DNA of 48,525 bases from Poseidonibacter ostreae (GCF_009208075.1 NZ_WFKJ01000020.1:1-48525); one strand, 5' to 3'; positions 22,142 through 37,661 are shown, counted from the stretch's first letter. A program made the numbers and translations. Notes: generated by a model not told the origin, from the letters alone.

Positions 22142-22161
22142 TAGATTTTATTAAAAATCTA
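22142..22161. terminator. Bidirectional hairpin between tupC and intI
   Basis: TAGATTTT (22142-22149), loop ATTA, AAAATCTA (22154-22161): a perfect 8-base-pair stem covering the stop of the integrase remnant and lying 4 bases after tupC. It can serve both convergent genes. It also marks the left edge of the integron. Confidence 0.6.
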
Positions 22162-23026
22162 ATGGGCTTTTTATCTCATCTTTATTCAACTCTTTTACAA
22201 CATGAGTATATATCATAGTTGTTTCTATACTTTTATGACCTAATAACTCTTGAATTGAACGTATATCTGTTCCATATTGTAGTAAGTGTGTTGCGTACGA
22301 ATGTCTGAAAGTATGAGATGAAATCTTTTTAAATATATTTGCTTTTTTTGCAGCTTTAGATATATTTCTTCCTAAAGTTTTAGGATGAATATGATGTCTT
22401 CTTATTTCTTCACTTCTTGGATCTTTTGATACTTTAGTCATAGGAAATAAAAATTGCCACTTTGTATCTTTTTTAGAATTTGGATACTTTTTTTCCAGTG
22501 CAAAAGGCATAAACACAGTTCCATAACCTTCCTCTAAATCTTTTTTATGTATGTCAGAAACAGTTTCAATTTGAATTGAAAGTTTTTGTTTTAATTTTAT
22601 GGGTAGGGGAATAGTTCTATCTTTAAGTGATTTACTATCCCATATATATACTTTGTTAAAACCAAAGTCTATATCTTTTATTCTAAGACTTAGTACTTCA
22701 CTCATACGAAGTCCACAACCGTACATAAGCATGACTACAAGATTGTATATCCCTTCAATATTTTCAATAACCTTTCTAACTTCATCTTTTGTTAAAACTA
22801 CAGGGATATGCTTCCTTTCTTGTGCTCTTAATGCTTGTATATTTTCATTTGTTAAATCAATACCTAAAACTTCTTTATATAAGAATAATATTGCTGAAAA
22901 AGCTTGATTTTGAGTTGTTGGAGCAATGTTTTATCCAATGTATATATGTTCTTTCTGTTGAAATACTATAGTGTTTGAATCTAACTTTATCTCTAACTAC
23001 ATCTAATAACTTTTTTTAACTTCCAT
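22151..23026 (-). pseudogene. intI: Integron integrase IntI, broken by internal deletion and frameshift
   Basis: Tyrosine recombinase of the integron type. The C-terminal part is intact: Arg I in [11 protein letters not shown], the integron-specific insert ([19 protein letters not shown], then [14 protein letters not shown]), box [30 protein letters not shown] with the nucleophile Tyr, and the terminal KSPLDF. Upstream the frame continues through [17 protein letters not shown] to a stop at 22931-22933. The true N-terminus (KLLDVVRDKVRFKHYS, then [11 protein letters not shown]) is found in another frame. About 30 codons between WIKH and APTTQNQ are missing. A second lesion is the A7 run at 23011-23017, which puts ATG 23026 out of frame. 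The protein is almost certainly inactive. Confidence 0.9.
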
Positions 23027-23306
23027 AATAAAAACCTTTTTCTTAAGGGAGATAATGTCCTTATACTAAGATATGTGACAAATAACGGAACACTTTGTCC
23101 TGTTATCTCTTAATATGGAGGTAAAAGGACATTTTATATTTAAGGATAATAGTATAAAAGTTAGTATTTTTTTAAATACATTACATTTTGTAATAAAAAA
23201 TATTATTAAAGGAACACTTTTTATGTCTTTTAATAATGTATTTAAATATTAATTGGGATATAATGTTCCTTGAATAAATAGTTATACTCAAAAAGGAACA
23301 TACTCT
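23027..23306. promoter_or_regulatory. Integron attI/Pc region
   Basis: No gene seen. GTTATAC at 23281-23287 lies 20 bases before the first cassette start, as the right ends of the other cassettes do, so it is the likely attI/first-cassette junction. TATAAT at 23259-23264, extended by GGGA, is a good minus-10 box and candidate cassette promoter; no clear minus-35. A 13-base inverted repeat TTTAAATACATTA (23171-23183) and TAATGTATTTAAA (23234-23246) encloses a smaller stem (ATTATTAAA/TTTAATAAT), making a large imperfect palindrome just upstream of the promoter. Confidence 0.6.
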
Positions 23307-23696
23307 ATGTCGCAAGTAAAAATTTATGGATTAAAAGAGAACCTTGATAATATTAAACTAAAATTATCAGAAACAATACATTCAACAATAGTTGAAGTAT
23401 TATCATTTCCAAAAGATAAAAAATATCATAGATTTATATCATTAGAAAAAGATGATATGATATTTCCAGATGATAAAAGTCATCAATATATTATTATAGA
23501 AATAATGATGATGGAAGGTAGAGAAACTGAAACAAAAAAGAATTTGATAAAATCTTTATTTGAAAATATAAATAAATATTTAGATATATCAGTAAATGAT
23601 ATAGAAATTTGTATTATTGAAAGCAAAGCTTCAAATTGGGGATTTAGAGGTATGACAGGGGATGAAATACAATTGAACTATAAAGTAGGAGTATAA
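23307..23696 (+). CDS. Tautomerase-superfamily protein, cassette 1
   Basis: 129 residues. The fold pattern fits the two-lobed Tautomerase_2 type: VKIYGLKENLDNIKLKLSE helix, FISLEKDDMIFPDD, the strand QYIIIEIMMMEGRETETKK, then a second helix and strand (DIEICIIESKASNWGFRG). The family's catalytic proline directly after the initiator Met is replaced by Ser (MSQVKI), so classical tautomerase chemistry is unlikely. RBS AAAAAGGAACA. The stop codon overlaps the left end of attC1, the normal cassette arrangement. Family assignment is by pattern only. Confidence 0.7.
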   Translation: MSQVKIYGLKENLDNIKLKLSETIHSTIVEVLSFPKDKKYHRFISLEKDDMIFPDDKSHQYIIIEIMMMEGRETETKKNLIKSLFENINKYLDISVNDIEICIIESKASNWGFRGMTGDEIQLNYKVGV

Positions 23697-23820
23697 CAAA
23701 ACCTAGAAAGGAACAAGTGACCCACGAAATTTTTAAGTCTCTACTAGCTAAAATGTAGTGGTTATAAAAGAAATCATCAAACTGTCTGAGGGTCATTGTC
23801 CCTTAAGTCGGTCGTTAGCT
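23691..23820 (+). other. attC1 recombination site
   Basis: 130 bases. Left end GTATAAC (23691-23697), right end GTTAGCT (23814-23820). The arms GGAACAAGTGACCC and GGGTCATTGTCCC pair with an unpaired extra G, as expected for an attC with extrahelical bases. The centre resembles attC3 (shared GTGGTTATAAAA stretch and equal spacing). Confidence 0.85.
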
Positions 23821-23835
23821 TAAAAAAGGATATTG

Positions 23836-24747
23836 ATGCTTGGTGTTTTTAATATATTTTCAAAAAGACAAAAAAAATTAGATAACGATACTGTTGATGT
23901 ATATGAATATGAAAGTATTCCATCCAATTTAAAAGTTCAAGCAATTCACATTTTTAGAGAAGTAATTGATACAGAACATTATAGTAAAGATAATATTTAC
24001 TTAGAGATTCATAAAATATTATGTAAAGAATATGGTGTCTTTACATTAAAAGAATATGCACAAAATAATGAAGAAGCAATATTTGATTTTTTATTAAACA
24101 CTAAGGATTATCAAAAAGCACTAGATATAATTGAATTATTTTACAGATACTTTTATCTTGTATTAAAAGAAAAGTATAAAGACCATGTTACTTATAGTAA
24201 AATGATTGATGATGCGATCATTGAACTTAATGAAAGGTTTAAAGAAAATGCTATCGGATATTCATTTGAATCAGGTGAAGCAATTAAAGTAGACTCTAAA
24301 TTTATTCATTCAGAAGTTGTAAAACCAACTTTAAAAATATTAAATAATTCTTTATACAAAGGGGCTAATGAAGAGTTTTTAAAAGCTCATGAACACTATC
24401 GACATAAAAGATATAAAGAGTGTTTAAATGAATGCCTTAAATCATTTGAAAGTACAATGAAAACAATTTGTGATAAGCATAATTGGACATATAATCAAAA
24501 TGACACATCAAAAAAATTAATAAAAATATGTTTTGATAATAATTTGATTCCGACATATTTACAAACACAATTTTCATCACTCCAACAATTATTTGAAAGT
24601 GGAGTTCCAACAATACGAAATAAAAATTCTGGACATGGTCAAGGGGTTCAACCAATTCAAGTTACGGCTGAAATTACAAGTTATATGTTGCATTTAACTG
24701 CAACTAATTTATTGTTTTTAGTAGAACATGAGCAACAGCTAACATAA
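23836..24747 (+). CDS. AbiJ-NTD4/STM4504-like protein with HEPN-like C-terminus, cassette 2
   Basis: 303 residues from the ATG at 23836. The N-terminus (LGVFNIFSKRQKK, then YEYESIPSNLKVQAIHIF) fits the AbiJ N-terminal domain 4 / STM4504/CBY_0614 proteins known from abortive-infection contexts. The C-terminal half is helical (YKECLNECLKSFESTMKTI) and contains R261-NKNSG-H267, an Rx5H arrangement inside the Rx4-6H consensus of HEPN ribonucleases, followed by a helix. A phage-triggered RNase is the likely role, by family and motif. Stop at 24745-24747, three bases before attC2. Confidence 0.72.
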   Translation: MLGVFNIFSKRQKKLDNDTVDVYEYESIPSNLKVQAIHIFREVIDTEHYSKDNIYLEIHKILCKEYGVFTLKEYAQNNEEAIFDFLLNTKDYQKALDIIELFYRYFYLVLKEKYKDHVTYSKMIDDAIIELNERFKENAIGYSFESGEAIKVDSKFIHSEVVKPTLKILNNSLYKGANEEFLKAHEHYRHKRYKECLNECLKSFESTMKTICDKHNWTYNQNDTSKKLIKICFDNNLIPTYLQTQFSSLQQLFESGVPTIRNKNSGHGQGVQPIQVTAEITSYMLHLTATNLLFLVEHEQQLT

Positions 24748-24749
24748 AA

Positions 24750-24818
24750 AGCTAACAAATCATTGGAGAGAAATATTTGAACCTGCGGCTCAAATATTTC
24801 TCAACTCAAACGTTAGAT
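24750..24818 (+). other. attC2 recombination site
   Basis: 69 bases. Left end AGCTAAC (24750-24756), right end GTTAGAT (24812-24818). A perfect 13-base-pair stem GAGAAATATTTGA/TCAAATATTTCTC closes a 9-base loop. The left end shares CTAACAAATCATTGGA with attC3. Confidence 0.88.
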
Positions 24819-24830
24819 AAAAGGAAAGTT

Positions 24831-25541
24831 ATGACAATTAAAGATCTTGGTATTTACACTAGACCAGTATTATTTGATACAAAATCTTGTGACTACCCTT
24901 ATGGACTATTAGGAAGTTGTTTTGGAATAGAATATGAAAATGAATATCTAATAATTACTGCACAACATGTTCTGGACAACTTTGAAAATAAGAATATTTT
25001 AGTACCTTATATATTAGGTAGTGATACCTTCTTACCAATAAATATCATACATGAGTTAAGCTATTCTAGTGAAATAGATGATACTGATAAATTTGACCTT
25101 GCAATTATACATATAGAGAAAAAGAAGCTAAATAAAGATTTTATAAAAACAAGTTTTTATAAAATAGATAACAGTCTATTGGAAGCAACATCATATACAG
25201 AATTTATTATTTATGGGTTTCCCTCAAAAATAAATGGAATAGACTATGAAGAGAAAAAGGTAAATGCTCAAAGAATGATAATTGAAGCTATTAATATAAC
25301 TAAAAGTCCATATACATATTGTTATAGTTTAGAAACAGCAGAAGATACAAAAGAATATTTAAATGGATTAAGTGGTTCACCAGTCTTTGGATTAAAAAAA
25401 GTTAATAGTCAAATTAACTATTGTTTTGTAGGAATGATGATTAGAGAAAAGTATTTTATTTCTGCTAGATGGATATATCATGTAATAAAAACATCTAACA
25501 AATCATTGGAAGAAGAACGAGTGACCCCTGCGAGTATTTAA
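24831..25541 (+). CDS. Trypsin-like serine peptidase, cassette 3
   Basis: 236 residues, ATG at 24831 with ribosome site AAAGGAAAG; the in-frame TTG at 24777 lies inside attC2 and is not used. Catalytic triad visible: H46 in ITAQHVL, D89 in KFDLAII, S183 in GLSGSPVFG. There is no signal peptide, so it acts in the cytoplasm, which is unusual for this fold and typical of defence-associated trypsin-like proteases. About 16 C-terminal codons are encoded by attC3 itself (stop 25539-25541). Target unknown; a defence role is inferred from motif and neighbours. Confidence 0.78.
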   Translation: MTIKDLGIYTRPVLFDTKSCDYPYGLLGSCFGIEYENEYLIITAQHVLDNFENKNILVPYILGSDTFLPINIIHELSYSSEIDDTDKFDLAIIHIEKKKLNKDFIKTSFYKIDNSLLEATSYTEFIIYGFPSKINGIDYEEKKVNAQRMIIEAINITKSPYTYCYSLETAEDTKEYLNGLSGSPVFGLKKVNSQINYCFVGMMIREKYFISARWIYHVIKTSNKSLEEERVTPASI

Positions 25542-25625
25542 GCCTAATTAGCTTTAATATAGTGGTTATAAAAAAAATCAGCAAACATATTGAGGGGTCA
25601 TCGTTCTTCAATTTAGACGTTAGGT
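25493..25625 (+). other. attC3 recombination site (overlaps peptidase 3' end)
   Basis: 133 bases. Left end ATCTAAC (25493-25499), right end GTTAGGT (25619-25625). GAAGAACGAGTGACCCC pairs with GGGGTCATCGTTCTTC, leaving one unpaired G at the same place as in attC1. The centre is similar to attC1. Confidence 0.88.
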
Positions 25626-25650
25626 TACAAAAGAAATAATAAGGAAGCAC

Positions 25651-28218
25651 ATGGCATTTAAAAAGAATCGTGTTAGCCAAGTTACAATAGAAACACCAGA
25701 AGCTTTACTTCATGACTTAAGAAGCAAAAAAATCAAAGCCCCATTCTCTCATCAAGCAGACATGTGGAGAAGATACTTAGAAAAAGCTTTAGACAAATCT
25801 GATGTAGCCTTGCAATTACCTACAGGTAGTGGAAAAACTCTTGTAGGTTTAATATTAGCTGAATGGCGACGACAAAAGTTTAAAGAGAAAGTTATATATG
25901 TTTGCCCTACAAATCAATTAGTACATCAAGTAGCAGAACAAGCAGAAAATCAATATGGATTAAAAGTTGCAAAATTTGTTGGTAGAATTAGAGATTATCC
26001 TATCTCAATAAAATCAGATTATGAAAGTGCTGATAAAATAGCTATTACATCGTATAGTGCCTTGTTTAATACTAATCCATACTTTAAAGATGCTGATATT
26101 ATTATATTGGATGATGCACATTCTTCAGAAAATTATATTAGCACATTGTGGTCATTAGAAATCAACAAGAATGCTGAGTATTCAAAAACTTTATTTATAG
26201 CATTTGCAAATTTGATTAAAGACTATATTCCAAAAATAGATTACGACAGAATGGTTGGTGAAAATAACTACGAAGAATGGAACGATAAATTACCTATAAC
26301 TGTTTTTAGTAAACTAGTAGATGATATTTCTTCATTATTAGATACATATTGTGTTCAGAATGAAATGCAATATCCTTGGCAAACAATAAAAAATAATTTG
26401 ATAGCTTGTCAATGTTATATTAGTACAAATCAAATTTTAATAAGACCAATTATTCCTCCAACAAAATCACATGAACCTTTTTCAAATGCTAAACAAAGAA
26501 TTTATATGTCCGCAACACTTGGTAATGGTGGTGATTTAGAAAGATTAACAGGAATGAGTAATATATTTAGACTACCTATCCCTGATGGTTGGGATAAACA
26601 AGGTATTGGAAGAAGATTCTTCCTATTTCCAGAGAGGTCACTAGATAGCGATGATGTCGAATTGTTTTTGGAAGACACTATTAAATCTTCAGGAAGGTCT
26701 GTTGTTTTAACTAAAGATTTTACTTCATCAGAAATATTTAAAAAATTTATAGATGAAAAAATCAAATATGAAACTTTTGATGCTAGTGACATTGAAGAGT
26801 CTAAAGAAACATTTTTATCAAAAGAACATGCAGTAGCAATTATTGCAAATAGATATGATGGTATCGACTTTGCTGAAGATGAAGCAAGAACATTAATAAT
26901 TTCTGATTTACCTACATCAACAAATTTACAAGAGAAATTTTTAGTAAACCGTATGGCTGCAAATGAGTTATTAAACGAAAGAATATTAACTAGAGTTGTT
27001 CAAGCTATGGGAAGATGTACTCGTTCACCTACTGATTATTCATCGGTAATTGTATTAGGGGAAAAACTTGTATCTTACTTACTTCCAGATAGGAAAAGAA
27101 AGTTGTTACATCCTGAATTACAAGCTGAGCTTGAATTTGGTATCGACCAATCAAAAGATATGACTTTACAAGATTTTATTGAAAATATTAATGATTTTTC
27201 TGGACAAACAGATGATTGGTTTGAAGCCGATAAAGAAATTATTTCATTGAGAGATGAATTGAATAAAGAAGAACCCGCATATATAAAAAATTTACAAAAC
27301 AGTGTAAAGTATGAGATAGAATATCAATATAAAATGTGGCAAACAGATTATAGTGGTGCTACTGATGAGGCACGAAATGCACTAAAAGAATTAACTGACA
27401 CTAATCTAAAAGGATACAGAGCACTTTGGAACTATTTAGCAGGAGCGTCTGCTCTATTAGCCGATAATGCAGATTTAGCATCAGAATTTTTTACAAATGC
27501 TATGAAAGCTGCTCCATCCTTGAAGTGGATGGTTACATTAGCTAAAAGTTCAGGAATAAAATCAGAAGATGTTATTGATGAAAGTGATTTAAACTCTGTT
27601 GTAGAAAAATTTGAAAAAGAAATCAAAAAATTTGGTTTAACGAGTAATAGAAAATATGATAAAGAAGAACAGTTTATTCTTGAAGGAATTATGAACGAAG
27701 ATGCTAAAAAATTTGAAGAAGCACAAAAGAGACTAGGAGCACTAATTGGATTTGAAGCAGGCAATATAGAAGATGATGCTTCTCCCGATCCTTGGTGGAT
27801 ATTAAGTGATAACTTATGTATAGTATTTGAAGATCATTCAGAAGGAACTGCAGAATACTTTAGTGCCACTAAAGCAAGACAAGCCACAACACATGATAAT
27901 TGGATTAAAGAGAATCTGTCTGTTTCTAAAGACATAGAGATTATAAAAGTTTTAATAACTGCTGTTAAAAAGGCACATAAAGGAGCATTCCCTCATTTAA
28001 AAGATGTATATCTATGGACGTTAGATGATTTTAGGTCATGGACAACAACTATTCTAAGTGTATTAAGAACAAGACGAAATGAATTTTCCAATGAAGGTGA
28101 TTTATTTTGGAGAGTAGATACAAAAGATAGCTACATTAGTAATAAATTAAGTCCTAAAATGTTAGTCGAAACAATTAAAAAAATATCAGCATATGATTAT
28201 TTTAAAAGTAATGAATAA
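25651..28218 (+). CDS. SF2 helicase, DinG/XPD-like, cassette 4
   Basis: 855 residues, ribosome site AAGGAAG. Helicase motifs: Walker A LPTGSGKT (56-63), VCPTNQL (Ia), DDAH (154-157), MSATL near 285, IANRYDGIDFAEDEARTLI (XPD/DinG-type motif IV-V) and VQAMGRCTR with R455/R458 (motif VI). The DDAH box and the NRYDGIDF block place it near Rad3/DinG-like ATPases, not DEAD-box RNA helicases. I see no Cys cluster for an FeS domain. The region 560-855 is helical with no named domain and could be a specificity module. A cassette of 2.65 kb is large for an integron. A defence role is inferred. Confidence 0.82.
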   Translation: MAFKKNRVSQVTIETPEALLHDLRSKKIKAPFSHQADMWRRYLEKALDKSDVALQLPTGSGKTLVGLILAEWRRQKFKEKVIYVCPTNQLVHQVAEQAENQYGLKVAKFVGRIRDYPISIKSDYESADKIAITSYSALFNTNPYFKDADIIILDDAHSSENYISTLWSLEINKNAEYSKTLFIAFANLIKDYIPKIDYDRMVGENNYEEWNDKLPITVFSKLVDDISSLLDTYCVQNEMQYPWQTIKNNLIACQCYISTNQILIRPIIPPTKSHEPFSNAKQRIYMSATLGNGGDLERLTGMSNIFRLPIPDGWDKQGIGRRFFLFPERSLDSDDVELFLEDTIKSSGRSVVLTKDFTSSEIFKKFIDEKIKYETFDASDIEESKETFLSKEHAVAIIANRYDGIDFAEDEARTLIISDLPTSTNLQEKFLVNRMAANELLNERILTRVVQAMGRCTRSPTDYSSVIVLGEKLVSYLLPDRKRKLLHPELQAELEFGIDQSKDMTLQDFIENINDFSGQTDDWFEADKEIISLRDELNKEEPAYIKNLQNSVKYEIEYQYKMWQTDYSGATDEARNALKELTDTNLKGYRALWNYLAGASALLADNADLASEFFTNAMKAAPSLKWMVTLAKSSGIKSEDVIDESDLNSVVEKFEKEIKKFGLTSNRKYDKEEQFILEGIMNEDAKKFEEAQKRLGALIGFEAGNIEDDASPDPWWILSDNLCIVFEDHSEGTAEYFSATKARQATTHDNWIKENLSVSKDIEIIKVLITAVKKAHKGAFPHLKDVYLWTLDDFRSWTTTILSVLRTRRNEFSNEGDLFWRVDTKDSYISNKLSPKMLVETIKKISAYDYFKSNE

Positions 28219-28225
28219 GTTAAAA

Positions 28226-28279
28226 ACCTAACAAGACCTAGCAGTGAACGCATAGCGTCACTGAAGTCAACCGTTATCT
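28226..28279 (+). other. attC4 recombination site (short)
   Basis: 54 bases. Left end ACCTAAC (28226-28232), right end GTTATCT (28273-28279). CAGTGAACGC pairs with GCGTCACTG around ATA, leaving one unpaired A. It is near the lower size limit for attC sites. Confidence 0.83.
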
Positions 28280-28442
28280 GAAAAAAGTAAATACTTCTAA
28301 AATATCAAATTATAAAAATAATAGTTAACTTTAGATAAAATAGATATTCAATATATAATTTATAAATAACATTGCAAAATGACATACTTTTAAAGAAACT
28401 TAAAATTTATTGCTATACTTTTTCAAAAGATGGGGAAGTATA
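28280..28442 (+). promoter_or_regulatory. Leader of restriction-modification cassette
   Basis: 163 bases without a gene, much longer than the gap from site to start in the other cassettes, and extremely AT-rich. It probably carries a private promoter for the methyltransferase gene; TAGATAAAATAGATA near 28330 and TGCTATACTTT near 28414 are possible minus-10 areas. GGGGAAG precedes the ATG at 28443. Confidence 0.4.
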
Positions 28443-30980
28443 ATGAAAACACCAAGTTTATTTGATTTTATAAATAAATCACAAGGAAAAGATATAAAAG
28501 CTTTAACATATATTTCACTTTTCAGTAGTGCGGGAATTGGTTGTTATGGATTTAAACAACAAGGCTTTAAGTGTATAGCCACTAATGAATATTTAGAAAA
28601 AAGAATTAAAATACAACAATACAATAATAAGTGTGAATTTGATAGTGGTTATATTCAAGGTGATTTATCAACTCAAGAAATTCAAGATAGAATTTATAAA
28701 GAGTTAGATAACAATAATATAAAAGATTTAGATATTTTAATTGCAACCCCACCTTGTCAAGGTATGTCTGTTGCAAATCATAAAAAAAATAATGAAACAA
28801 AAAGAAATTCATTAGTTGTAGAATCAATTAAGATAGTTTCAAAAATAAAACCAAAATTTTTTGTATTTGAAAATGTAAGAGCATTTTTAAATACAATTTG
28901 TACAGATACTGATAATATTGATAAGCCAATCGAAGAATCTATAGAGTTAAATCTTGGTGGAAACTATAATATACTCTCAAAAGTAGTTAACTTTAAAGAG
29001 TACGGTTCGCAATCAAGTAGAACAAGAACGCTTGTAATTGGTACTAGAAAGGACCTAGTTAATATAAGCCCTTATCAACTATTTCCAAAACAACAAAAAG
29101 CTAAAAAACTAAAATCATTAATTGGTGATTTACCATCATTAAAAATAATGGGTGAAATATCTGATAATGATATTTATCATTCTTATAGAAATTTTGATAC
29201 TAAAATGTTGTCTTGGATAGAAAATATAAAAGAGGGACAATCAGCTTTTGATAATATAGAACCAACAAGAATACCTCATAAAATAATTGATGGTGAAATT
29301 GTTTTTAATAAGAATAAAAATGGTGATAAGTATTCAAGATGGTACTGGGATAGAGAAGCTCCTTGTATTCATACAAGAAATGATATTTTAGCTAGTCAAA
29401 GTACTATACATCCCTCAGACAATAGAGTATTTAGTATTAGAGAATTAATGAGGATGATGACAATATCATCTGAATTCAAATGGTCAAATATAGATTTTAA
29501 CACACTTAATAATTTATCACATGAAGAAAAAAAGAAATATTTAAAACAAGATGAATTAAATATAAGACATTGCATTGGTGAAGCAGTTCCAACTATAATT
29601 TTTGAACAAATAGCTCAAAATGTAAAAAAAGTTTTAAAACATAAAGTCTTATCAATTAATGAATGTGAAAAAATTATTCAAGAATATACTTTACAAGATA
29701 TAAATAATTTACAAAATTTTATTATTAACAATAATCATAAATATGATTTGAATACGCTTTATAATATTGCTGAACTTTCAAATATAAAAAGAACTGAGAC
29801 AAAAGCATATTTTACTAGGGAAGATATTGTACACAATGTAATAAATAAACTTCCTACATTTAAAAATAAAAAAAGTATAAGAATACTTGAACCATCAGTT
29901 GGTATAGGAAATTTTTTACCTTTATTATTTAAAAAATATGATAATATTCAAAATGTTATTTTAGATATTATTGATATTGACAATAATTCATTAGATACAT
30001 TAAAAATACTATTAACTAAGACTAAAATACCAAAAAACTTTACTATTAATTTTATTAATACAGATTTTTTACTATGGGAAAATAAATATCAATATGATTT
30101 AGTAGTTGGTAATCCCCCTTATGGAAAAGTAATAAATAATAAATTTTTACTAGATAAATATAAATTAGATTGTGATAATAAAAATACAAATAATTTATTT
30201 TCATTTTTTATCGAGAAGTCTATAAAAATATCCAAATATGTATCCTTAATAGTTCCAAAAAGCTTGATTAATTCTCCAGAATTCAATCAAACAAGAGAAA
30301 TATTAGAAAAGAAAAATTTACACTCAATTACTGATTATGGTGAAAAAGCTTTTAAAGGTGTAAAAATTGAAACAATAAGCTTTTTATTAGATACTTACAA
30401 AATAGAAAAATTTGAAAAGATAAAAATTGAAAGTTATATAACAAATACTATCTTTTACCAAAATAAAGACTACATATTCTCAAAAGATTTTCCATATTGG
30501 TTAATTTATAGAAATAATTTTTTTGATACTATTGTAAATAAAATGGAACTTGATATTTTTGAAAGTTTTAGAGATAGACAAATTACAAAAAAACATACTT
30601 TAAATAGTGGGAATATAAGAGTTTTAAAATCAAGAAATATTGCTAACAATAGTATTAAAAATATAGACAATTATGATTGTTTTATTGATGAAATAGATAG
30701 CTTTGTTGTATCAAAGTATTTAAATCAAAATAATATTGTACTTATCCCAAACTTAACATATAATCCAAGAGCAACATTTTTACCTAAAGATACAATAACA
30801 GATGGTTCAGTTGCACTTTTAAAAGCAAAAAACAATATAAATATTACTAGCAATCATTTAGAATATTATAGTAGTAGTGAATTTATTGAATATTATAAGA
30901 TTGCAAGAAATAGAGGAACTAGATCTTTAAATATTGATAATAATTCTGTTCAATTTTTTGGATTATTAAAGGAAGCATAA
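28443..30980 (+). CDS. Fused DNA methyltransferase: cytosine-C5 domain plus adenine-N6 domain, cassette 5
   Basis: 845 residues from the ATG at 28443; an 11-codon upstream extension has no ribosome site. Residues about 20-400 are a C5-cytosine methyltransferase: SLFSSAGIGCYGF (motif I), P103-P104-C105-Q106 (motif IV nucleophile), FVFENV (VI), SRTRTLVIG (VIII) and a late motif IX/X region. Residues about 450-845 are an N6-adenine methyltransferase: LEPSVGIGNF near 484 (SAM binding) and N557-P558-P559-Y560, then a target-recognition region. Enzymes for asymmetric sites often need one C5 and one N6 activity; here both are in one chain. It ends right at the start of the nuclease gene. Confidence 0.87.
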   Translation: MKTPSLFDFINKSQGKDIKALTYISLFSSAGIGCYGFKQQGFKCIATNEYLEKRIKIQQYNNKCEFDSGYIQGDLSTQEIQDRIYKELDNNNIKDLDILIATPPCQGMSVANHKKNNETKRNSLVVESIKIVSKIKPKFFVFENVRAFLNTICTDTDNIDKPIEESIELNLGGNYNILSKVVNFKEYGSQSSRTRTLVIGTRKDLVNISPYQLFPKQQKAKKLKSLIGDLPSLKIMGEISDNDIYHSYRNFDTKMLSWIENIKEGQSAFDNIEPTRIPHKIIDGEIVFNKNKNGDKYSRWYWDREAPCIHTRNDILASQSTIHPSDNRVFSIRELMRMMTISSEFKWSNIDFNTLNNLSHEEKKKYLKQDELNIRHCIGEAVPTIIFEQIAQNVKKVLKHKVLSINECEKIIQEYTLQDINNLQNFIINNNHKYDLNTLYNIAELSNIKRTETKAYFTREDIVHNVINKLPTFKNKKSIRILEPSVGIGNFLPLLFKKYDNIQNVILDIIDIDNNSLDTLKILLTKTKIPKNFTINFINTDFLLWENKYQYDLVVGNPPYGKVINNKFLLDKYKLDCDNKNTNNLFSFFIEKSIKISKYVSLIVPKSLINSPEFNQTREILEKKNLHSITDYGEKAFKGVKIETISFLLDTYKIEKFEKIKIESYITNTIFYQNKDYIFSKDFPYWLIYRNNFFDTIVNKMELDIFESFRDRQITKKHTLNSGNIRVLKSRNIANNSIKNIDNYDCFIDEIDSFVVSKYLNQNNIVLIPNLTYNPRATFLPKDTITDGSVALLKAKNNINITSNHLEYYSSSEFIEYYKIARNRGTRSLNIDNNSVQFFGLLKEA

Positions 30981-32168
30981 ATGGTAGATACAATAAACAA
31001 TTATTTTAATAATTATAATTTTGATATTAAAGTTACAAAAAATGCAAGATTTATGGATCAAAAAGTTACACCAGATGTAATGTGTATGATTGCTGATTGT
31101 GTATTAAATTTTATAGAAACTAAAAATGATGAAAATATTAAATTTAGTTCAACAGATATTTGGAAACATGAGTATTCAAATACAAATATAAAAGAGATAT
31201 TTGGTAAAACTGATGTATCAAATAAAAAAGCAAAAAATGAATATGATAAATTTTTTCAACAACCCCTAAAAGCATTAGCATATGCAAAAATACTTAAAGA
31301 AGAAAAGCAAGGCAATAAAATATATTTCACCGTTTTGAACTTAGAAATTTTAGAATATATTGCAATAAAAGAGCGAAATACACTAAATTTTTTAGACATA
31401 TATTTGAAAAAAGTTTTAGAAGATAGCCATATTTGGCATTTATTTGAAAATTTTTTTATAAATAATACAAAAGATAATTTTACTAGCCTTAAAAGTGAAT
31501 ATGAGAAATTTATTATATTACATACTCCAATTAATGGAGAAATCGAAGTAAGAAGAATTTTTACAAAAATTCTAAATCCTCTTTCTTTTAAAAGACAAAA
31601 GCATGGAACAAGTGGAGGATTTTTTTCTAAAGATATAATATCAAATGATGTATTAATGTATAATAGAAAAAACTGGAGAGATATCACTAAAAATAAATCA
31701 GAAACTAGAGAAGAATATGAAATTAGAGCTAAACTAGAAGTACAACAAACTAAAGATGCTTATGTTAAATATACTATCAATAAAGCTACTAATATAGTTA
31801 GGAAATTACATTCACCAACAAGTGAAGTAAAAGATGAGTTAGCAATAGGTGAAGCTACACAAGTACATCATATTTTCATGAAATCAGAATATCCACAAAT
31901 TGAATCATATATAGAAAACCTAATTTTATTAACAGCTACTCAACATAATACTAAAGCTCATCCAAGTAATAATACAAGAAACATACATAAAGATTATCAA
32001 TTATTATGTTTGTTGGCAAAAAGTGATTCTATTGAAAAATATTATAATACTTATTCAAAAGAAGATTTTCTTTTTGTCTTAAAAATAGGATTAAATAAAG
32101 AATTTTCTAATAAGATTGAGTTTGGAGAATTGAAAGAAAAGCTTGTTGACTTGTACAATGTTGCTTAA
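30981..32168 (+). CDS. Type II restriction endonuclease, HNH-type, cassette 5
   Basis: 395 residues, begins with the base after the methyltransferase stop and has ribosome site AAGGAAG. The N-terminal region (ARFMDQKVTPDVMCMIADCV, then DIWKHEYSNTNIKEIF) resembles nucleases of type II R-M systems with asymmetric sites. The C-terminus carries an HNH-like finger: H296-H297 in QVHHIFMK, Asn in IENLILL, and TQHNTKAH. The cut site cannot be predicted. Pairing with a two-activity methyltransferase makes a complete restriction-modification system in one cassette. Confidence 0.8.
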   Translation: MVDTINNYFNNYNFDIKVTKNARFMDQKVTPDVMCMIADCVLNFIETKNDENIKFSSTDIWKHEYSNTNIKEIFGKTDVSNKKAKNEYDKFFQQPLKALAYAKILKEEKQGNKIYFTVLNLEILEYIAIKERNTLNFLDIYLKKVLEDSHIWHLFENFFINNTKDNFTSLKSEYEKFIILHTPINGEIEVRRIFTKILNPLSFKRQKHGTSGGFFSKDIISNDVLMYNRKNWRDITKNKSETREEYEIRAKLEVQQTKDAYVKYTINKATNIVRKLHSPTSEVKDELAIGEATQVHHIFMKSEYPQIESYIENLILLTATQHNTKAHPSNNTRNIHKDYQLLCLLAKSDSIEKYYNTYSKEDFLFVLKIGLNKEFSNKIEFGELKEKLVDLYNVA

Positions 32169-32174
32169 TTAAAC

Positions 32175-32307
32175 AGATAACAAATCGTAGAAATCGAACA
32201 AGGCTATAGAGTGAAAATACCAAGTTTTTATCTTATAAACTAAGTTAAATGATAAAGCAGTTTTTTACTGAGTTATATCGCCTTGTCGCTTAACTCAACC
32301 GTTATAT
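32175..32307 (+). other. attC5 recombination site
   Basis: 133 bases. Left end AGATAAC (32175-32181), right end GTTATAT (32301-32307). CGAACAAGGCTATA pairs with TATATCGCCTTGTCG, leaving a few unpaired bases. The inner part is AT-rich and unlike the other sites. Confidence 0.83.
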
Positions 32308-32320
32308 TCAGGGAGATACA

Positions 32321-33139
32321 ATGGACATTTGGAGTTTACCTTATACTTTTGAGTATGAGGGTCGAAAGGTGAAATATGGGATTGAAGGAAAAGGAGAGCC
32401 TCTTGTTTTAGTTCATGGTACGCCTTGGTCATCATTCAACCTTAGGCACTTGATTCAAGCACTTTCGAGCCACTATACAGTCTACTACTTTGATTTACTT
32501 GGTTATGGTGAATCAGATAAAAGTGATGCGGATGTATCTTTAAAAATACAAAATCAGCTATTAGACTCATTAATAGGTCATTGGCAGCTTGAGTTACCTT
32601 ATATTGTGGGGCATGACTTCGGCGGTACGACAGTACTGAGAAATTACTTGCTGAATCAACGAAAGTACAAAAAGATAGTTGTAATTGATCCAGTTGCGTT
32701 ATCTCCTTGGGGCTCTCCATTTTTTAAACATATTGAAAAGCATGAAGAAGCCTTTGCAGGAGTGCCTGATTTCATCCATTCAGCAATCGTTGAAGCATAC
32801 ATAAAAACAGCGTCATATCAACCATTATCTCAGGAAACAATTGACGGTATTCTCCGCCCTTGGTCTGGAGATGAAGGTAAGAAAGCTTTTTATAGGCAAA
32901 TAGCTCAAGCTGATTCAAAGTATACGGATGAATTTCAAGATAAATTCTCTAGCTTTGATGTACCCACATTAATTCTTTGGGGTGAAGAAGATCAATGGAT
33001 CCCTGTTGAGCAAGCTCACGTACTTCATAGTAAAATTAAAGGCTCTAAGTTAGTTACAGTGCCTGAATCTGGACATTTGGTTATCGAAGAAAAACCAGAA
33101 GCATTGGTTAAAGAGATCCGAGAGTTCTTCGAAAGTTGA
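32321..33139 (+). CDS. Alpha/beta hydrolase with Asp nucleophile (epoxide hydrolase/dehalogenase type), cassette 6
   Basis: 272 residues, ribosome site GGGAGA. The oxyanion loop HGTPW is at 32-36; the nucleophile elbow GHDFGG puts Asp at residue 99 where esterases have Ser; the acid is in GEEDQWIP and the catalytic His in ESGHLV. Asp-nucleophile members hydrolyse epoxides or haloalkanes through an ester intermediate; the substrate is unknown. Codon use and GC content are visibly higher than in neighbours, and the following attC looks gammaproteobacterial, so recent transfer is likely. Confidence 0.82.
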   Translation: MDIWSLPYTFEYEGRKVKYGIEGKGEPLVLVHGTPWSSFNLRHLIQALSSHYTVYYFDLLGYGESDKSDADVSLKIQNQLLDSLIGHWQLELPYIVGHDFGGTTVLRNYLLNQRKYKKIVVIDPVALSPWGSPFFKHIEKHEEAFAGVPDFIHSAIVEAYIKTASYQPLSQETIDGILRPWSGDEGKKAFYRQIAQADSKYTDEFQDKFSSFDVPTLILWGEEDQWIPVEQAHVLHSKIKGSKLVTVPESGHLVIEEKPEALVKEIREFFES

Positions 33140-33236
33140 ATATAACAAAGCATTTAAGAGTGATTCCTTACGCTTGGCAGTTTCGCTTCGCTCAAGTGTA
33201 GCCAAGCGTGCGTCACACCTTAATGCGGCGTTATAT
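33140..33236 (+). other. attC6 recombination site, gammaproteobacterial-looking
   Basis: 97 bases. Left end ATATAAC (33140-33146) and right end GTTATAT (33230-33236). It includes AACAAAGCATTTAAGAG and CTTAATGCGGCGTTATA, strings typical of Vibrio/Shewanella-type sites. Stem ACGCTTGGC/GCCAAGCGT. It is GC-richer than the other five sites. Confidence 0.9.
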
Positions 33237-33253: not shown

Positions 33254-33703
33254 ATGAAACAAGAAAATGATGGCCTATGGATTAAAGAAATAGAATTGGA
33301 ATTAAAAGATTATTCTCCCATAGAGATGGCATCTGTTTTTTCTGGAATGCTATTAGATCCAAAATATCAAAAATGTACATACAGGCTTGAATATGCGATT
33401 AAATTGTGTTTGTCTCATTGCAGTGGAATAAATACTCCAAACAAAGAAATCATTAATAAGATTAATAAATCACTTGAAAAAAATTCTATTACCCTTCAGG
33501 AAGATCCAGTTGAAGATATTAATACTTCATCATTATTACTAGACGGTAAGCGATATAAATTTTTATTAGGATTATGGGAAGGATGTATACCTCAAACTCA
33601 ACTTTTCTTAAATATGTTAAATGTTTTACCAAAAACAGTTGCTTGTATGAACCTATATAAAAATATTAAGGGGTTGATGGAAAATCCGGGGACAGTATAC
33701 TAA
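33254..33703 (+). CDS. Hypothetical protein, last cassette gene
   Basis: 149 residues, ATG 17 bases after attC6 with ribosome site GAAGGTAAAG. Helical, soluble, no motif I can name (KFLLGLWEGCIPQTQLFLNML). It ends ENPGTVY, encoded by CCGGGGACAGTATAC. I recall this ending on many truncated or read-through genes next to short dispersed GGGGACAG-type repeats, so the natural C-terminus may have been replaced. No attC follows, so the array is cut off or decayed here. Confidence 0.65.
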   Translation: MKQENDGLWIKEIELELKDYSPIEMASVFSGMLLDPKYQKCTYRLEYAIKLCLSHCSGINTPNKEIINKINKSLEKNSITLQEDPVEDINTSSLLLDGKRYKFLLGLWEGCIPQTQLFLNMLNVLPKTVACMNLYKNIKGLMENPGTVY

Positions 33704-33724
33704 ATATAAAAAGGAAACAAAGCT

Positions 33725-37536: not shown

Positions 37537-37661
37537 ATATTTTCCTTATGTTGATTTTTATAAATCTTAGGACAGTATACTAAACTAATTATAATTTAAA
37601 ATAAAAGGAATATAATTCAACAACAAAAGTTCATACTCCATACATTCTAAGGAAATGTCTA

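Follow-up and report, generated by a model that had tools for sequence, protein, structure and literature searches.

What two adjacent open reading frames at positions 28,443 to 32,168 of a 48,525-nucleotide stretch of Poseidonibacter ostreae DNA (the window) encode, and how such a gene pair is carried in the genome, is the question raised by this locus. From the comparisons below we consider it very likely that they form a type IIS restriction-modification (R-M) system of the HpyAV/Hin4II family, with CCTTC/GAAGG as its likely site, which moves as a self-promoted integron cassette. The exact site, the promoter activity, and modification and restriction in vivo are parts of this explanation that we infer. 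All positions refer to the window unless another locus is named, and all features are on the plus strand unless stated otherwise.

The first gene, M (28443..30980), encodes a fused C5 and N6-adenine DNA methyltransferase of 845 residues. Its ATG at 28443 is preceded by GGGGAAG, and starting instead at an in-frame TTG (28410) would lengthen the protein to 856 residues. Residues 20-400 (28500..29642) make up the C5-cytosine methyltransferase domain: Pfam DNA_methylase (PF00145) covers residues 22-394 of M (E=7e-41), the HaeIII and HhaI structures match this part in a comparison with PDB sequences, and the motifs FSSAGIG, PPCQ, ENV, RTR and GEAVP are found at 27, 103, 143, 193 and 379. Residues 441-845 (29763..30977) make up a TaqI-like N6-adenine methyltransferase domain with a C-terminal target-recognition region, assigned from PADLOC and from TaqI N6-adenine methyltransferase structures, which match residues 538-643 (E=3e-6); LEPSVGIGNF lies at 482 and NPPY at 557. 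An earlier examination of the sequence alone (the sequence-only reading) had placed PPCQ and NPPY in one 845-residue protein and proposed a fusion of C5 and N6 methyltransferases; both motifs and both domains indeed lie in one open reading frame, each chemistry with its full motif set, and the coordinates and lengths given there for M and R agree with our open reading frame check. A domain without SAM-binding residues was named there as evidence against the proposal, and we found that both domains keep theirs, with no variation in the SAM-motif and catalytic residues across 21 homologues.

The second gene, R (30981..32168, 395 residues), begins at the base after the M stop codon, with 0 bases between them, and encodes an HNH restriction endonuclease, in line with the HNH-type nuclease that had been read directly after M. 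The PADLOC REase_II model PDLC03488 matches residues 3-377 (E=4e-110), and R has no match in Pfam, NCBIfam or PDB sequences. The residues of the HNH (beta-beta-alpha metal) active site, H296, H297, N313 and H322 (31854..31964), are identical in all 23 homologues. In the AlphaFold2 model of R (mean pLDDT 90.9), they are located inside or adjacent to a strand (292-297), a second strand (314-318) and a helix (319-326), which is the order of the elements in a beta-beta-alpha metal site. A Foldseek search with this model gave no significant match in the PDB (best E 0.12), so the HNH assignment relies on the motif, its conservation and the predicted local topology.

To which family does this pair belong? 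The PADLOC profile PDLC03277, of 823 residues, aligns over its positions 6-820 with M residues 20-843 (E=5e-236), while a 387-residue profile matches the C5 half (E=2e-137) and PDLC03382, of 445 residues, matches the N6-adenine half (E=2e-103). These three lengths are those published for M.HpyAV, M1.Hin4II and M2.Hin4II. M.HpyAV (HP0054, 823 aa) is a verified true C5 and N6-adenine fusion, and its endonuclease HP0053 (419 aa), encoded downstream in the same direction, has the HNH residues H294, H295, N311 and H320 (PMC2816704). The spacing of these residues, 0/+1/+17/+26 (H-H-x15-N-x8-H), is the same in the window R; HphI is named with other HNH restriction enzymes in the same paper (PMC2816704). 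From these sequence matches, the two genes are assigned as a complete type II R-M system, of type IIS and of the HpyAV/Hin4II family, which supports the R-M system with fused methyltransferases and HNH nuclease that the sequence-only reading had proposed. Its view that such a fusion is uncommon does not hold: ten other fused systems homologous to HpyAV have been on record since 2010 (PMC2816704), and our scan of genome contigs found 24 further loci with a fused M. As an R-M system, therefore, the pair is a new, diverged member of a known family, and the fusion itself was already known.

The comparison with individual members of the family places the window system more closely. Like HpyAV, it has a C5 and N6-adenine fusion of ~820-845 residues with a co-directional HNH endonuclease downstream. 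The genes are about half diverged, however, M carries an N-terminal extension of ~18 residues, and R is slightly shorter (395 vs 419 residues). Like Hin4II of Haemophilus influenzae, it has the domain order M(C5), M(N6A), R, whereas in Hin4II, an isoschizomer of HpyAV, the methyltransferases are split into M1 (387 aa) and M2 (445 aa) (PMC2816704). Among our loci, L074, which comes from a single-contig genome of 1.64 Mb, contains putA (1185 residues), putP (496), M (822), a frameshifted R and an N6-adenine methyltransferase gene in this order. Its gene order equals hp0056-hp0050, in which we take putP and putA to be the H. pylori neighbor genes, and its identification as H. pylori comes from gene order and protein lengths. 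The hp0050-hp0054 part of the order is taken from papers on HpyAV (PMC2816704, PMC3936762). The window M is 47-49% identical to this H. pylori-type M (47% over the full length), and R is 44-46% identical; unlike HpyAV, which adjoins putP, the window genes lie in an integron cassette. In L074 (10037-10946) the R of the hp0053-type locus is frameshifted and M is open; a broken R has also been described for H. pylori strain G27 (PMC2816704).

HpyAV of H. pylori 26695 recognizes CCTTC and cuts 6/5 (PMC2816704), and SMRT sequencing of the same strain assigned both m5C at CCTTC and m6A at GAAGG to M.HpyAV (PMC3936762). The sequence-only reading had predicted m5C on one strand and m6A on the other. 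The homologue M.HpyAV places the marks in this way, suggesting by analogy that M would do the same; for this homologue, the methylation check proposed there has thus already been carried out and gave the expected outcome. To the H. pylori-type protein, the C5 target-recognition region (TRD) of the window M is 51% identical and the C5 core 55%, with 30 and 32% invariant positions, respectively; the C-terminal TRD part of the N6-adenine domain is 46% identical and its core 45%, with 21 and 16% invariant positions. When methyltransferases change specificity, the target-recognition regions usually vary most. Because those of M are about as conserved as its catalytic cores, CCTTC/GAAGG is the best prediction for the site of the window system, and is perhaps its exact site, a prediction that we hold with fair confidence. 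A system of the same family and mechanism with a site that differs from CCTTC by at least one base is possible but doubtful: M retains only 47-49% identity to the H. pylori-type protein, and a 1-bp difference is allowed for more distant homologues (PMC2816704), but the even conservation of the TRD regions argues against it, as does Hin4II, which keeps the HpyAV site at identities of 57/56% (M halves) and 48% (R), near those of the window (PMC2816704).

With CCTTC/GAAGG as the preferred site, the system would work as follows. M would bind the asymmetric 5-bp site and mark each strand with a different domain: the N-terminal one would methylate a cytosine in CCTTC (m5C), and the C-terminal one an adenine in GAAGG (m6A). 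One M polypeptide would serve both strands of host sites, including those hemimethylated after replication. R would use its HNH active site to cut unmethylated sites a few bases downstream. M would be translated first and R next without a gap, and the operon would move as one integron cassette with its own promoter in the leader, independently of its position in the array. Raw long-read data from any carrier strain would allow an immediate test of the predicted site.

We compared the window genes with those of L002, a Sulfurimonas assembly whose M and R are 88% and 66% identical at the protein level. The dN/dS values of 0.09 (M) and 0.25 (R) place both genes under purifying selection. The faster change of R, together with the broken R genes of several relatives (L043, L044/L074) and the poor transcription often reported for distant cassettes (PMC12409362), would fit an active M accompanied by a silent or dead R, in which case the array would retain the cassette as an orphan modification system. 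We consider this unlikely, since the window R is open, full-length and coupled directly to M, and it retains the four catalytic residues under purifying selection. A membership in the Eco31I/Alw26I/Esp3I family of HNH-type IIS systems with N6-adenine and C5 methyltransferases is highly improbable, because NCBIfam TIGR02987 (the Alw26I/Eco31I/Esp3I N6-adenine methyltransferase model) touches only 112 residues of M (455-566) at 42.0 bits, far below its cut-off of 353.5 bits, while the profiles of HpyAV and Hin4II length span M from end to end.

The HpyAV/Hin4II-type operon is located in an array of cassettes. The sequence-only reading had called it a cassette, which is literally correct, since it is the fifth of six cassettes of a chromosomal integron; the word was meant loosely there, and the integron was not recognized. 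The R-M cassette (28274..32301, 4,028 bp) starts with TTATCT and ends at the next G/TT, and its start, GTTATCT, and the R'' box at its end, AGATAAC, are reverse complements at 7/7 positions. This box belongs to a 133-nt attC (32175..32307), which is 84% identical to the attC after the homologous operon in L002. On the left, the boundary is given by the right end of the attC of the preceding helicase cassette (28226..28279), a hairpin whose R'' box ACCTAAC matches the start of that cassette, GTTAGGT. Cassettes 1-4 (23282..28273) encode a tautomerase, an AbiJ/STM4504-like protein, a trypsin-like peptidase and a PDC-S28-like helicase, and cassette 6 (32302..33230) an alpha/beta hydrolase. From attI to 33230, each of the six cassettes begins with seven bases that are reverse-complementary to the R'' box at the cassette's end. 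An unrestricted search for GTT/AAC chains over 11 kb was dropped as undiscriminating, since some shuffles also give 7 links, and a test of intergenic DNA was used instead: 6/6 links were found, while each of the 20,000 shuffles had no more than 2 consecutive links and no more than 3 overall. Rfam at gathering thresholds returned nothing, leaving the attC sites unmarked by any family model, and several of these sites have weak folding z-scores.

The attI core (23270..23284) reads TTGAATAAATAG followed by TTA, with the crossover after 23281, and the wider region (23270-23287) reads TTGAATAAATAG followed by TTATAC. In seven relatives (L079-L085), AATAAATAG followed by TT is conserved next to an intact, divergent intI. 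In the window, the integrase gene itself is a decayed pseudogene on the minus strand (22154..23015): compared with the intact IntI of L077, it retains residues 4-33 and 64-321 in two frames and lacks residues 34-63 (~30 residues), the intact IntI of relatives being 320-350 residues long as read here. A close intI match occurs in 22 of the 104 genomes of the family, with the window's genome counted, and a search of that genome gave no second close copy. With its integrase decayed, the array seems immobile, unless an integrase encoded elsewhere acts on it.

Homologous cassettes that include the leader are present in Sulfurimonas, Sulfurovaceae and Sulfurospirillum assemblies. In L002, the operon runs from GTTATCT to AGATAAC, immediately after the attI core TTGAATAAATAG, with a 133-nt attC; in L088, a copy of the Sulfurospirillum record L020, the cassette also immediately follows an attI core; and in L089 and in L004, a Sulfurovaceae record, it is a single cassette from GTTATCT to an attC of ~54 nt. 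No integrase was found within the L002, L088, L089 and L004 stretches. A chance origin of the flanking repeats, with the operon an ordinary defense-island resident, is barely credible despite the 7-link shuffles and the weak folding z-scores, given the 6/6 intergenic links, the conservation of the attI core next to the intact intI genes of relatives, the equal boundaries flanking the operon in L002, L089 and L004, and the left boundary at the attI core in L002 and L088. The window operon is a literal integron cassette. The boundary pattern was found around none of the operons of L005-L008, L010, L012, L013, L017 and L022, implying that only some copies of the operon are cassettes, the exceptions including close relatives (L005-L008).

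Among the further loci with a fused M, R adjoins M wherever the contig permits, mostly directly downstream and co-directional. R was found in 19 of 397 genomes of a phylum sample, and M in only 2 of the 104 genomes of the window's family, a patchy presence that is compatible with horizontal movement. Plasmid and phage records gave only distant homologues, of at most ~50% identity over the whole M.

The M ATG lies 169 nt from the cassette boundary and 224 nt from the upstream open reading frame. The 164-base leader of the sequence-only reading agrees with the stretch between position 28279, where the preceding attC ends, and the ATG, and the same reading had suggested a promoter there. A scan for promoter consensus gave 5 matches in the leader on both strands versus 1.6 expected, which is weak alone; as standalone evidence the scan was rejected, because A+T-rich DNA yields too many matches. 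The leader (28274..28442, 169 nt) is, however, 80-82% identical to those of L002, L088, L089 and L004 (shuffled control: mean 68%, maximum 76%). Its conservation peaks near ATTGCAAAATGACATA and TTGCTATACTTTTTCAAA, and the latter contains a candidate extended -10 element, TGCTATACT (28411..28419), read in the sequence and conserved in position in the leader alignment. Since the leader is conserved across different genomic contexts, it probably contains the operon's own promoter, with TGCTATACT as a candidate element, and we argue that this promoter would travel with the cassette.

L004, L088 and L089 form a sub-lineage with a different R. They have the leader and M in common with the window (M 82-84% identical at the protein level), but R is only 42-44% identical. 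Between M and R they carry an additional open reading frame of 123-125 residues (L004, 8561-8932; L088, 4938-5309; L089, 15854-16231). L004 and L089 are equally close in M and R (93 and 94% of nucleotides). The simplest reading of these alignments would be that a single M became combined with either of two distinct R-attC modules. We lean slightly towards a history in which a near-full-size, self-promoted two-gene R-M operon spread among Campylobacterota families as a cassette and its 5' part, the leader and M (82-88% identical), was joined to two 3' parts, one consisting of an R at 66% identity with a homologous 133-nt attC (L002), and the other of the 123-125-residue open reading frame and an R at 42-44% identity, with an attC of ~54 nt where found (L004, L089). 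If this is true, the endonuclease and its attC would form an exchangeable unit, with the modification gene retained. A second, truncated copy of M, 80% identical to that of the window, is located at the end of the 19-kb L088 contig (17799-19412), which also carries the complete system; genes resembling those of a Mu-like phage lie between the two copies.

R-M systems in integrons are already known. R-M and other defense cassettes in chromosomal integrons were described by Darracq 2025 and Kieffer 2025, as summarized in a review (PMC12409362), and by Rowe-Magnus 2001, as cited in PMC4176335. As in those known in chromosomal integrons, the type II genes of the window are bounded by attC; in the window they stand beside other defense-like cassettes. 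For integron-borne type II systems, the review reports a trend towards reduced size (PMC12409362), whereas the window cassette, at 4.0 kb, has two genes of near full size and a conserved leader; its host, unlike those of the reported integron R-M cassettes, is campylobacterotan. The cassette-borne M is not shortened (845-847 residues, vs 811-859 in relatives outside cassettes), and R only slightly (385-395 vs mostly 390-446). The less expected part of our finding is that the R-M system is a mobile, unusually large integron cassette also in related bacteria. This bears on whether restriction systems have to be reduced, as reported, to reside in integrons, and on the safe uptake of a toxic R gene by integron recombination, with M first, an own promoter and all in one unit.

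The neighborhood offers further observations. The cassettes at 23815-28273 (AbiJ/STM4504-like, with DUF7014; trypsin-like peptidase; helicase) are defense-like, and the DEAD-like helicase of 855 residues matches the PADLOC candidate PDC-S28 (E=2e-114). At 33254-33703 lies an open reading frame of 149 residues whose match to the anti-phage protein Upx (1,240 residues) is confined to the first tenth of that protein, and the array appears cut off here. The sequence GGACAGTATACTAA occurs twice, at about 33690-33705, at the array end, and 3.9 kb away at 37571-37586, after several unrelated genes; these repeats are perhaps the traces of a mobile element.
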